Below are positions 6,811 to 63,362 of a stretch of 64,000 bases of DNA, piece after piece. A model generated the notes under the pieces. That model did no database searches. It was not told the origin of the DNA and worked only from the letters and a program-made list of their open reading frames with translations. Within the stretch, counting starts at the first letter, position 1. Each line of letters begins with the position of its first letter. The stretch comes from Eubacteriales bacterium (GTDB lineage: Bacteria > Bacillota > Clostridia > Oscillospirales > Butyricicoccaceae). A program made the translations under genes and the position numbers. Where the stretch lies: contig JAUNGQ010000007.1 in assembly GCA_030524285.1 (NCBI GenBank), positions 1 through 64,000 on the forward strand, written 5' to 3'.

Positions 6811-6859
6811 TGAAATGTCCTCCTTAGTTTTTCCTCCACATCGTTCCATTTGGCAGCGA

Positions 6860-6882
6860 CCCTGTATTCTATGCCTACAGGG
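6860..6882 (-). promoter_or_regulatory. Hairpin in the rpsB leader
   Basis: CCCTGTA and TACAGGG pair over a 9-nt loop, inside the transcribed leader between the rpsB promoter and its start codon. It has the position expected of an S2 autoregulatory element, but I do not recognise a known family. Confidence 0.4.
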
Positions 6883-6928
6883 CACCACGCCGCTTTACGC
6901 GATGTGTGTGTATTTTTCATACCAGATG

Positions 6929-11533: not shown

Positions 11534-12952
11534 ATGATTTTGAGTTCAAAAAAACAACGAGCATCTACAATCCGGTGGATTACACGCATAATCACAATTT
11601 TCTGTGCCTGTCTTCTACTTGCCGGCATACCCGCATCCGCAGCGCGGATGGGCTCTGTCGACATCAACGGCTCAGAGGTTGCCTATCAGGCACAGTACAA
11701 GGCATACACACAAGCGGCTGCCGAAGACGATGCCGTTGTATGCGAGTTTACCGTTTCCAATCCGACAGCCGGGAAAAACGGCGCACTATGTCGCATCATC
11801 CTGCCGCAAAGTCAGAATGTTTATTTGTACATGGACGCCGGTGATCTTGCTGTCATGCGGTATGACGGCTCAGAATACAAGAAATTTGGCGTAGATTATC
11901 AACTGAAAAACAACGTAACATATACATTATGTGTCTTCCGCGACGGGCTGGTGCTTTTTGACGGTACACGCTGCTATACCTACAGCGGCAATCTGTACGG
12001 CTTTACAGATGTTATTGCAGGCTGGAGCGATGATTCCAACGTATTTTCAACCAAGCTATCAAAGAAAAAGCCATCACAAATCAAATCCAATAGCAGCAGC
12101 ACAGAATCCACACCGAGCAGCGGCTCAAGCATGGAAACAGCCTCTGTCACTGTCTCCAATCCATATCCACCCATCTGGGTTATTCTTGCCATGCTGCTCG
12201 GCACAACCAGCAATCTGTTGGCACTTGCAGCATTGCGTTCGTCTAATATCGCACTACGTACCGTGCAGCGGTCTATGCTACGCAACAATACCAATGTATC
12301 GCGCGCGCACAAACAGCAGACAACCTCTGCTCCCAAGCGTCCGGCTCAAAAACCAAAGGCTCCATCCGCTGCTCCGCCCAAACGGGCCACAGCCTCAACG
12401 CCTGCAAGGCCTGCCAAATCTGCATCCCATTCCTCTGCTGCGTCTTCCACGGCCCGCCCGTCAGGAAACAAACAGTCGCGGTTCTTCGATGTCGATGCAC
12501 TGCCACCGTCCAGACCGCCAACGGCTCCTACACCAGTAGCTCCTACACAGCCTACGCAGCCGTTTGACGTCTATAACGGTGACTATTGGCGCATACACAG
12601 GGAAAAATTTATCCCGTGCAACTTCGGCAGCTCCGGCTTTGGCTACTGTATTTTCTCCCGCGGCTCTGATATCTCTTCTGATATGTTTGTCCTGCTGGGC
12701 GATGCATACATCTGGCTCAATCCGGTTCGCTTCCATTCGACTTCCGTAGACCATGGCGTATTGCTCCGTATGGGGGAAATTGCCGGAATTGCCATGGCAT
12801 TTGATTTCTGCCATGTCGGCACGGGCAAACGGGAAATTGCACTGGCCTATGACGTTGAAATGGTTAATTTTCGCCCTGCACGTGTCAAGCAAGGCCCGCA
12901 CGGCACATCCGAGCTGATTGACCGCGGCATTATTGTGTTTGAACCAGTATGA
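11534..12952 (+). CDS. Unknown exported/membrane protein with Pro/Ala/Ser-rich linker
   Basis: I do not recognise a family. The 472-residue protein has an N-terminal signal-like segment (about residues 18-36, ending PASAA). A beta-rich domain to about 175 is followed by a Ser-rich spacer, one hydrophobic helix (about 210-232, WVILAMLLGTTSNLLALAAL), a long basic Ala/Pro/Ser/Lys linker (about 255-345) and a C-terminal domain of about 120 residues containing GDAYIWLNP. The order suggests an extracytoplasmic sensor-like domain joined through the membrane to a cytoplasmic one. GAGGGG lies only two bases before the ATG, so the in-frame TTG at 11540 may be the true start. It stands alone under its own promoter. 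Confidence 0.65.
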   Translation: MILSSKKQRASTIRWITRIITIFCACLLLAGIPASAARMGSVDINGSEVAYQAQYKAYTQAAAEDDAVVCEFTVSNPTAGKNGALCRIILPQSQNVYLYMDAGDLAVMRYDGSEYKKFGVDYQLKNNVTYTLCVFRDGLVLFDGTRCYTYSGNLYGFTDVIAGWSDDSNVFSTKLSKKKPSQIKSNSSSTESTPSSGSSMETASVTVSNPYPPIWVILAMLLGTTSNLLALAALRSSNIALRTVQRSMLRNNTNVSRAHKQQTTSAPKRPAQKPKAPSAAPPKRATASTPARPAKSASHSSAASSTARPSGNKQSRFFDVDALPPSRPPTAPTPVAPTQPTQPFDVYNGDYWRIHREKFIPCNFGSSGFGYCIFSRGSDISSDMFVLLGDAYIWLNPVRFHSTSVDHGVLLRMGEIAGIAMAFDFCHVGTGKREIALAYDVEMVNFRPARVKQGPHGTSELIDRGIIVFEPV

Positions 12953-41717: not shown

Positions 41718-42007
41718 ACAAAATCAACTCCTTTTATCTTCCTACATGATAGCATGTTCTTCCATAAATAAAAAGATCCAACCCTGCAATATTTTTATCC
41801 ACATTTCCCTTTTTTTCTTTGTTTTTTTATCCATTCTTTTCGTCATTTCGTATAACTGCACGAGATACTTTGACAGATTTCCTTGTTATTTTATCTATTT
41901 TGGTTAAATGACCAATCAAGAATCTGTGAAACATTCTTAAAATGTTATCAAAACAATCGGAATTTTCATACGTTTTGTAACATGACAAACAAATGGGAAA
42001 GGGGTAT
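41718..42007. other. A/T-rich intergenic stretch
   Basis: These 290 bp upstream of pepD and of the small gene at 42058 are very A/T-rich. Open frames here lack ribosome sites. I find no convincing hairpin or operator. Confidence 0.4.
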
Positions 42008-46213: not shown

Positions 46214-46242
46214 TTGTTTGCTTCCATTTTACGATATATAAT
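46214..46242 (+). promoter_or_regulatory. Promoter of spo0A
   Basis: TTGTTT (46214-46219), 17 bp, TATAAT (46237-46242), about 50 bp before the start codon. Confidence 0.6.
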
Positions 46243-46291
46243 AAAAATCGTTCGGTATAAAACTACTTATAGAAAAGAGAGGATTGAAAAA

Positions 46292-47080
46292 ATGTTATCT
46301 GTTATTCGGGTGATGATTGCATCGGAAGACAGCACATTTTCAAAGCTGTTTTCTGCAACAACGCAGCCCTCCGAAGGTTTATCTGTAGTCGGTATGTATA
46401 CCTCGGGGATTGGTTTGATGGACGCGATCCGGCATGATAAGCCTGACGTACTGTTGATTGATTTCATGCTTCCCGGCGTCAATACTCTAACCATTTTACA
46501 TGAGATAAACCGGCTTTCGTCGGAAGAACGTCCCACGGTTTATGTCCTGTCCTCATTTGCTTCTCCGGAAACTGTTGCGGAATGTCATCGTTTGGGAGTT
46601 TGCTTTTTCCTGCGCAAGCCAATTGATATTGCATCGCTTATTGACCTGATTTCCCGGTATGGTATTTCCTCCCGGCATTCTCTGTATCAGCCCAAGGCAC
46701 AACCAAGCTGGCTGGATGTTTTCATGTATGTTACCCAGATTCTGACAAGTCTTCAAATCCCGGCGCATGTTGCAGGCTATGGCTATGTTCGTGAATGTAT
46801 TATGTTGACGCTTGCCGATACATCCACAGCAGACTCTGTCACCAAAATCCTGTATCCAACTGTTGCCAAAAATAATAATACTACATGGACAAGCGTGGAG
46901 CGCGATATCCGCAATGCAATTGAAATCGCATGGAAACGCTCAAACGGCTATATGCCTGGTTTCAGTACAGTCCGCCGTCCTCCAAACCGTGAGTTCATTC
47001 TCACAATTGTAGATCGTGTACGCTGTGAAATGCACCTTGATCAAAACTATCCAGATCAAATCCAACGCGGAATTTTTTAA
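46292..47080 (+). CDS. spo0A: Spo0A-type sporulation master regulator
   Basis: Spo0A is the response regulator that commits endospore formers to sporulation. The 262-residue protein has an N-terminal receiver (1-120) with acidic E12/D13, phospho-acceptor D57 (LLIDFMLPG) and K109 (RKP). The C-terminal Spo0A DNA-binding domain (about 144-255) shows IPAHVAGYGYVRECIMLTL, TKILYPTVAKNNNTTWTSVE and NAIEIAWKRSN. This is a clear but divergent match: family proteins usually have KGYQYLREAI and PSRVERAIRHAIE there. AAGAGAGGATTG precedes the ATG. The usual upstream partner spoIVB is absent. 0A-box-like sites upstream suggest autoregulation. Confidence 0.88.
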   Translation: MLSVIRVMIASEDSTFSKLFSATTQPSEGLSVVGMYTSGIGLMDAIRHDKPDVLLIDFMLPGVNTLTILHEINRLSSEERPTVYVLSSFASPETVAECHRLGVCFFLRKPIDIASLIDLISRYGISSRHSLYQPKAQPSWLDVFMYVTQILTSLQIPAHVAGYGYVRECIMLTLADTSTADSVTKILYPTVAKNNNTTWTSVERDIRNAIEIAWKRSNGYMPGFSTVRRPPNREFILTIVDRVRCEMHLDQNYPDQIQRGIF

Positions 47081-61155: not shown

Positions 61156-61191
61156 ATATCTCAGTGAATTTCCGTAGGAAGAGTGAATCAT

Positions 61192-61767
61192 ATGAGTTTT
61201 TTCAGTCAGTTAAAAGACGAATTAAATGACAACAACATCGACAAGGCAAAGCTGAAGGAGCTGACCAAGCACATACCGGAGGAAGCTGCAAAGGAAGATG
61301 CCGCAAAAAAAGAACCTGTCAAAAAGGTTCAGGAAGATGACCCGGACTATCCGGATCATCCGGACTATATCGCACTGAAACCTCGTATGACTGAGGTAAA
61401 GCTGTGGAATATGCCGGCAATCCGCTTCTATTTGACACTGATTTTCTTCTGTATCGGTATGATCCTGTTTGGTGTGATTAACCAGCTGTTTGGCTTTGGC
61501 ATGACCAAGGGAGCTGTTGGCTGGTGGCAGATTATCGGCGCCGCAATTGGCTTTTTTCTCAGTCGTGAATATGTCGAGCCACATCTGCGCATCCCGTTCT
61601 CCAAGGGTACGCCGGAACAAAAGAAAAAGGCTGTAGAAGCATATCTGGCAGAAGTCGAAACATTGGACAAGCATATCGAAGATCTTCGCAAGCTGCAAGG
61701 AGTAGAAAAAGCTGAAGATACAGAGCCTATGCTGGAAGTAATTGAAGTTGACGATACAAACGAATAA
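61192..61767 (+). CDS. Membrane protein of unknown function
   Basis: I do not recognise this 191-residue protein. A charged N-terminal region of about 70 residues (SFFSQLKDELNDNNIDKAKLKELTKHI, then EDDPDYPDHPDYIALKPRM) precedes two membrane helices (about 83-106 and 114-130). A C-terminal charged helix (KKKAVEAYLAEVETLDKHIEDLRKL) is predicted to form a coiled coil in the cytoplasm. AGGAAGAGTG precedes the ATG. A promoter and perfect terminator flank it as a single-gene unit. Confidence 0.65.
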   Translation: MSFFSQLKDELNDNNIDKAKLKELTKHIPEEAAKEDAAKKEPVKKVQEDDPDYPDHPDYIALKPRMTEVKLWNMPAIRFYLTLIFFCIGMILFGVINQLFGFGMTKGAVGWWQIIGAAIGFFLSREYVEPHLRIPFSKGTPEQKKKAVEAYLAEVETLDKHIEDLRKLQGVEKAEDTEPMLEVIEVDDTNE

Positions 61768-61770
61768 TAT

Positions 61771-61811
61771 AAAAAAATTCCGTCATTGACCGACAATGAC
61801 GGAATTTTTTT
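61771..61811. terminator. Bidirectional terminator (18-bp perfect stem)
   Basis: The 18-bp stem (AAAAAAATTCCGTCATTG and its complement, 5-nt loop) serves the membrane protein gene on the plus strand and the candidate small RNA on the minus strand. Confidence 0.9.
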
Positions 61812-62015
61812 AGACACGCTGAGTCAGGAGAGAATCTGTTGTATATTCAAAACAACAAGGATAAGGAGATAGAGAGATAAGAGAAGAGAGATTCAACATT
61901 CAGGAAACAGATTTCTCAAACGTGTCCTGCGGCTCTACCGCATATAGTAAGATATAGTAAAAGGAAGGTTTGAAAGGGATACTGGAAAGGCTTACGCATA
62001 TCTTCCCTTTCAACA
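61771..62015 (-). ncRNA. Candidate structured small RNA, about 245 nt
   Basis: A minus-strand promoter at 62022-62049 starts a transcript that ends at the perfect terminator 61771-61811. It has no plausible coding frame. The 5' end folds at once (TTGAAAGGGA, 61970-61979, pairs with 62004-62013), followed by a GCGG/CCGC hairpin (61929-61941). A long arm follows: 61813-61818 pairs with 61921-61926 and 61828-61840 with 61906-61917. The arm exposes a loop of about 65 nt that is almost all pyrimidine over 61857-61893 and contains CTCC, complementary to Shine-Dalgarno sequences. I do not recognise a known family; a diverged 6S RNA is the main alternative. Confidence 0.6.
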
Positions 62016-62021
62016 ATTCTT

Positions 62022-62049
62022 ATTATAGTCATTTACACCAAAAATTCAA
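62022..62049 (-). promoter_or_regulatory. Promoter of the candidate small RNA
   Basis: TTGAAT (62044-62049), 16 bp, TATAAT (62022-62027) on the minus strand. Confidence 0.65.
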
Positions 62050-62261
62050 CATCAAAATTGTTTAAATTTACGAACGCGTGGACAATTGTATTTGTTACAA
62101 GTGCATACGACGTCGAAAATACGTGGAAAATGCTTCCGCAGCATTGTTACAATATACCAATATTTTGTTAAATAATACGTAAAAATACGAAAAAACAGCG
62201 CAAAATCCACTCTTTTCACGCCAAAATTTGTGCAAATCGAAGTAATCACAACATGATAGCA
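62050..62261. other. Intergenic stretch between the small RNA and ilvC
   Basis: A/T-rich sequence of 212 bp with a short TGCT/AGCA hairpin (around 62131-62144) and no coding frame with a ribosome site. It may hold upstream regulatory elements of the small RNA. Confidence 0.35.

Positions 62262-62324: not shown

Positions 62325-63362
<1,038 letters not shown>

Follow-up and report, generated by a model that had tools for sequence, protein, structure and literature searches.

A candidate small RNA gene with conserved pyrimidine-rich loops in a genus of Clostridia

In Listeria monocytogenes, LhrC uses CU-rich sites to bind the Shine–Dalgarno (SD) region, and its several unpaired C/U-rich sites, placed in loops and a linker ahead of an intrinsic terminator, make it a close described parallel to the locus presented here (PMC4132741). 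Another is IsrR of staphylococci, with conserved unpaired C-rich regions beside stems and a terminator (PMC9410917). On a broader scale, a study of human microbiomes (PMC8040213) describes 3161 candidates for structured RNAs, and the present RNA may be among them. Our literature search for C-rich anti-Shine–Dalgarno small RNAs of Clostridia returned no paper. To our knowledge, few small RNAs have been charted in the less-studied genera of Clostridia.

The locus and its copies in the genus

The window, a stretch of 64,000 nucleotides analysed as a whole, contains on its minus strand at 61771–62015 a compact candidate small RNA gene of about 245 nt, with both ends predicted. It occupies the intergenic region between an ilvC-like gene (62325–63350), which carries KARI domains, and a convergent gene of 194 aa (61183–61767, plus strand). 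Read 5′ to 3′ along the RNA, the parts are a promoter, the hairpin P1, a single strand with ACCUUCC, the hairpin P2, a closing arm round a pyrimidine-rich loop, and a terminator. To judge from sequence comparison, the locus looks like an independent small RNA gene conserved in shape across the genus. Of 87 family genomes, 10 contain the convergent gene, and 9 of these belong to the genus; its protein has no match to a family in Pfam (E 0.001) or NCBIfam (E 0.01).

A DNA similarity search gives matches in 8 of 60 related genomes, none outside the genus; with the copy of genome G006 as DNA query, 9 of the 12 genus genomes match, the window's own included. The match in G011 is the promoter, and the remainder of that copy was read by hand. 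The layout can be read in all nine carriers: G000 (the window's genome), G003, G005, G006, G007, G008, G009, G010 and G011. Seven copies, those of G000, G003, G005, G006, G008, G009 and G010, are of one type, hereafter A-type. The remaining two (G007 and G011), which we recognised from position, promoter and CCUUCCUUUUC, are B-type, with the same layout and a different loop. The DNA search finds no match in G004 (100% complete) or G002 (65% complete), and in G001 the contig stops at the convergent gene.

A covariance model of the A-type core, R1, was built from six sequences and run with stricter filters on family and order genomes. Among 87 family genomes it gives a single match in each of 7, every one a member of the genus; six of these are its own building sequences and the seventh (G010) is weak (E 0.081). 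Among 295 sampled order genomes it matches 3, again all in the genus. With the tools used, the RNA thus appears confined to the genus; since R1 misses the B-type copies, other genera may hold a diverged form.

The promoter, of sigma-70 type, reads TTGAAT-16-TATAAT at 62049–62022 on the minus strand, as the sequence-only reading of this DNA had proposed, and its TTG and ACTATAAT are invariant in nine aligned copies. Promoter-like sites are frequent in the window, with 5 found against 3.4 expected (sd 1.6). The region is kept despite a changing upstream gene: G000 and G006 have ilvC there, in G010 a further gene stands between ilvC and the RNA, and in G007, G009 and G011 we find what we take to be a TruA-like gene. 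Conservation of the promoter region (62023–62170, minus strand) extends over an unusual length, about 100–150 nt upstream and in several blocks, in the A-type copies and less so in the B-type. In the nine-copy alignment, two of these upstream blocks, the 0A-box-like TTTTCGACG (62119–62111, minus strand) and GTATATTGTAACAA (62157–62144, minus strand), are mostly missing from the B-type copies. The former site reads TTTTCGACA in G003, G005, G006 and G009 and TTTTCGACG in G000 and G008, and G007, G010 and G011 have no such 0A-box-like site at the corresponding upstream place of the alignment. We take the site to resemble the reverse complement of the Spo0A box.

Spo0A_C domains occur in 12 of 12 genus genomes. 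The window also encodes a second Spo0A-like response regulator, with receiver and Spo0A_C domains, at 46214–47080 (plus strand), about 15 kb from the RNA; its Pfam match has E 2.2e-26 and its NCBIfam Spo0A score of 148.3 bits lies below the cut-off of 200. A lower-scoring second Spo0A_C match shares a contig with the RNA in G003, G005, G008 and G010.

The covariance search that the sequence-only reading had called for, with Rfam 15 (SRP, RNase P, tmRNA, raiA and others), gives no match over its gathering score in the whole window and, up to E 10 around the locus, 19 weak matches, none over its gathering score. Elsewhere in the window, a sub-threshold match to t44 RNA (RF00127) lies at 6827–6928 on the minus strand (39 bits, below the gathering score of 44, with E 7e-5). 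Separately, AAAAGGAAGGAATTGGGTAAAGATG, near contig position 12294 (G000:C1:11500-15500), recurs in G000, G004 and G008 and may be a conserved leader; the frame that follows it is 10 aa long in G000, and in G008 it has 41 aa.

Drifting stems and invariant loops

The minimum-energy fold of the RNA (−65.2 kcal/mol, z −5.34, with 0 of 200 shuffles equally stable) contains the 5′ hairpin, the GCGG/CCGC hairpin, the closing arm and the 18-bp terminator, all of which had been noticed from the letters alone. The intrinsic terminator (61770–61812, minus strand, 18–19 bp), which lies between the RNA and the convergent gene, contributes much of the folding energy. Without it, the window copy is only mildly better than shuffles (z −1.15, within a range of −0.57 to −3.83 over the nine copies), and it is therefore covariation, not energy, that carries the argument for structure.

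Four stems make up the remainder, all on the minus strand. P1, the 5′ hairpin (61970–62013), is present in the fold, and its arms can be read in eight of nine copies. P2, the GCGG/CCGC hairpin (61928–61942), is also in the fold; six of the seven A-type copies have an identical TGCGG/CCGCA, and G010 lacks it. In the closing arm, P3 pairs GGACACG (61921–61927) with CGUGUCU (61812–61818), both in the fold and in hand-read arms, and P4, read by hand in seven copies, pairs AAUCUGUU (61906–61913) with AACAGAUU (61833–61840). MAFFT with RNAalifold alone does not fully recover the closing arm. The alternative that RNAalifold offers (GGGAGA with UCUCCU, UUGUU with AACAG) was set aside and ascribed to misaligned 3′ arms, and the stems were read by hand.

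Each of the nine copies has P3, and no two share its 5′ arm. Counted on hand-built strings, with one bulge omitted in each of G005, G007 and G011, its outer six pairs are paired in 54 of 54 cells, and 6 of 6 pairs are changed on both sides. The covariation score of P3 is 1.505 against 0.272 for shuffles and is reached by 0 of 500 of them; reading P3 by hand leans towards structure, yet slid and shuffled controls stay below this score. The number of double-change pairs does not by itself exceed what shuffles give (126 of 500). When arms of different genomes are paired with each other, the mean is 0.63 for P3 (own arms 1.00) and 0.80 for both P1 and P4 (own arms 0.95 and 1.00), the P1 and P4 values being the best of the offsets tried and computed without G003 and G006 for P1 and without G008, G007 and G011 for P4. 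Since arms of different genomes also pair well in P1 and P4, covariation there is weak and these two stems are supported mainly by their presence. The compensatory changes in relatives that the sequence-only reading had asked for are found in P3. Loops are conserved and stems drift: the CU block has 20 invariant columns of 23, the P3 side 3 of 18. The conserved layout is not due to chance.

Three stretches in loops or linkers stand out, again on the minus strand. The single-stranded ACCUUCCUUUUACUAUAUC (61951–61969) contains CCUUCCUU, which is kept in nine of nine copies with a mean unpaired probability of 0.82–1.0. A conserved loop block, CUGAAUGUUGAAU (61891–61903), includes UGAAUGUUGAA, which does not vary among six of the seven A-type copies and is absent from G010. 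The pyrimidine-rich loop (61851–61891) ends in CUCCUUAUCCUUGUUGUU (61868–61851), 18 nt that are letter-identical in six genomes and have a mean unpaired probability of 0.64–0.85 in the six copies; the pyrimidine runs of the B-type loops reach 0.86–1.0. The values of 0.14 (G006) and 0.02 (G011) obtained for a 'CU tract' refer to the first nine-pyrimidine run, which in these two copies precedes CCUUCC and falls within the 5′ hairpin region. In the window copy, what had been described as about 37 nt of nearly pure C/U measures 35 nt with 3 purines or 38 nt with 4. Because a slightly longer pyrimidine tract occurs elsewhere in the window, in an AT-rich gap at 41803 (plus strand), tract length alone means little; across the aligned copies, the special trait of the tract is its sequence conservation. 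The exact 18-mer is also found in 5 IMG/VR contigs, which score at most 27.3 bits with R1 and were taken as chance matches.

Proposed action and rival explanations

The locus is probably a lineage-specific independent sRNA gene, most likely acting in trans by C/U-rich pairing, and this trans-acting pairing is the best reading of our analysis, held with moderate confidence. We infer that the housekeeping-type promoter would give a transcript of about 245 nt ending at the strong intrinsic terminator, in which P1, P2, P3/P4 and the terminator would form a scaffold that keeps at least two C/U-rich stretches single-stranded, among them ACCUUCCUUUU, located after P1 and before P2, and CUCCUUAUCCUUGUUGUU, in the loop that P3/P4 close. 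These stretches would pair in trans with purine-rich parts, chiefly the ribosome-binding regions, of several mRNAs and would lower their translation. The B-type copies, with their different loop, count against trans-pairing.

The sequence-only reading had proposed an anti-Shine–Dalgarno loop whose CUCC could pair with AAGGAG-type ribosome sites. Duplex energies against the ribosome sites of 53 window genes are equalled by 19 of 200 shuffles for the ACCUUCC stretch and 40 of 200 for the CU loop, so that in predicted binding to ribosome sites the loops barely outdo shuffled versions of themselves. The true anti-SD tail is equalled by 0 of 200 in the same 53-gene test, a control favoured by the rough gene set, which comprises ORFs of at least 120 aa with starts chosen by means of that very tail. 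What stands of the earlier reading is a candidate new small RNA with exposed pyrimidine loops, on sequence and covariation and with no Rfam match; its generic anti-SD action lacks clear support.

Extended complementarity before ATG was sought with the patterns GGATAAGGAG and AAAAGGAAGG, and also AACAAGGATAAGGAG with at most 2 mismatches. GGATAAGGAG-N-ATG gives 29 rows (27 sites) in the 12 genomes against 4 in the reversed control, an excess that is expected because the pattern contains the SD. The window's own genome, which is 73% complete, contributes none of these sites, and the genes are not orthologous, the only similar pairs among predicted proteins of at least 40 aa being two double-counted sites. 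For AAAAGGAAGG-N-ATG there are 60 rows, compared with 23 for the control; 44 of the 60 were read, and three of the 60 lie on the complement of the RNA itself. Its two most recurrent sites, which occur in five and four genomes, seem to lie inside coding sequence, presumably of rimP and rplC to go by the protein letters. Two gene types recurred at starts, encoding what we take to be a Gfo/Idh-like dehydrogenase and an IolE-like protein. In the orthologue follow-up, with 11 loci taken from one listing of 46 matches, the ribosome sites of both types are not conserved beyond the SD at the loci with readable starts (9 of 11 and 7 of 10). Neither the pattern search before ATG in the 12 genus genomes nor the two orthologue sets yielded a conserved target.

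The null result of the target search would suit the main rival, in which the stem shows a long C/U loop that titrates a pyrimidine-binding protein, for example a cold-shock protein or Rho. The C/U loops are long, G-poor and largely unpaired, as such a sponge would have them, and the 18-nt loop, conserved letter for letter over more than a typical pairing seed, could mean protein binding. What is conserved, however, is the exact order of letters beyond composition, and a second, separate motif (CCUUCC) is also kept, as is UGAAUGUUGAA; we regard the sponge as possible but rather unlikely.

A more elaborate and improbable version of trans-pairing makes the RNA the output arm of a genus-specific circuit, in which the second Spo0A-like regulator would act via the conserved TTCGACA-type site and the RNA would retune many mRNAs through two or three pyrimidine motifs. 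The link of Spo0A to the RNA promoter is a weak lead, and G010, which has the second Spo0A-like protein without the site, speaks against it.

The convergent gene is the neighbour in eight of nine carriers, with the terminator in between, as would be expected of a cis element of that gene (its 3′ end, an antisense RNA or a terminator); a leader of a downstream gene would be a related possibility. In G006, however, the convergent gene is missing beside the RNA and is not found in the genome, and the RNA and terminator are intact; moreover, the RNA has its own conserved promoter, and in the copies read no gene directly follows on its strand. We consider a cis role very unlikely.

About as unlikely is a small mRNA, whose short peptide would begin at the AAUGUUGAA block or at a different start, on this strand or the opposite one. 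The sequence-only reading had seen no coding frame; the window copy does have two short ATG frames (27 and 29 aa), G010 has an ATG frame of 43 aa and G005, on the opposite strand, a frame of 27 aa, but no reading frame is common to the nine copies on the RNA strand or the opposite strand, and five copies are without any frame of at least 15 aa on the latter. Among the four genomes with a listed AAUGUUGAA frame, the conserved pyrimidine block falls in two different frames, and in G009 the AAUGUUGAA frame ends after three codons.

The least probable reading, the diverged 6S RNA binding RNA polymerase that had been offered as the alternative, draws on the length and the long closing arm with an open region in the fold, features that we take to resemble 6S, and is rejected as the main 6S of the genus because 8 of 12 genus genomes, including six of the nine carriers, have a separate canonical gene (RF00013, over its gathering score) on another contig. 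Around the locus 6S gives no match at its gathering score or even up to E 10, and the open region here is a pyrimidine-rich hairpin loop, whereas 6S has a central bubble. The 6S search finds no gene in G000, G002, G003 or G005 (73, 65, 88 and 94% complete), and for the window's own genome the separateness of 6S rests on its relatives.

Comparison with described small RNAs

The candidate RNA gene is clearly delimited, its closing arm covaries and its loops are invariant, which allows its likely active sites to be named before experiment. If pairing with mRNAs is true, the genus would gain a post-transcriptional regulator with testable sites; if protein binding is true, the 18-nt invariant loop is a ready bait.

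The trait that unites RNAs of the LhrC, RsaE and IsrR type, an unpaired, conserved C/U-rich motif outside coding sequence with its own promoter and terminator, is present here as far as sequence can tell. Their UCCC core is missing from both exposed stretches, and the window copy has UCCC only in the paired 3′ arm of P1. Where LhrC has redundant UCCC sites, the exposed stretches here have CUCC and CCUUCC; the layout is another one, and five LhrC copies compare with one R1 match per genome. LhrC binds the SD regions of its targets (PMC4132741); here the pattern search found no conserved target. IsrR, with its three conserved C-rich regions on stem-loops, differs in its iron regulation and its tested targets (PMC9410917). 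The candidate would be placed beside these RNAs as what appears to be a new sRNA family of a known kind.
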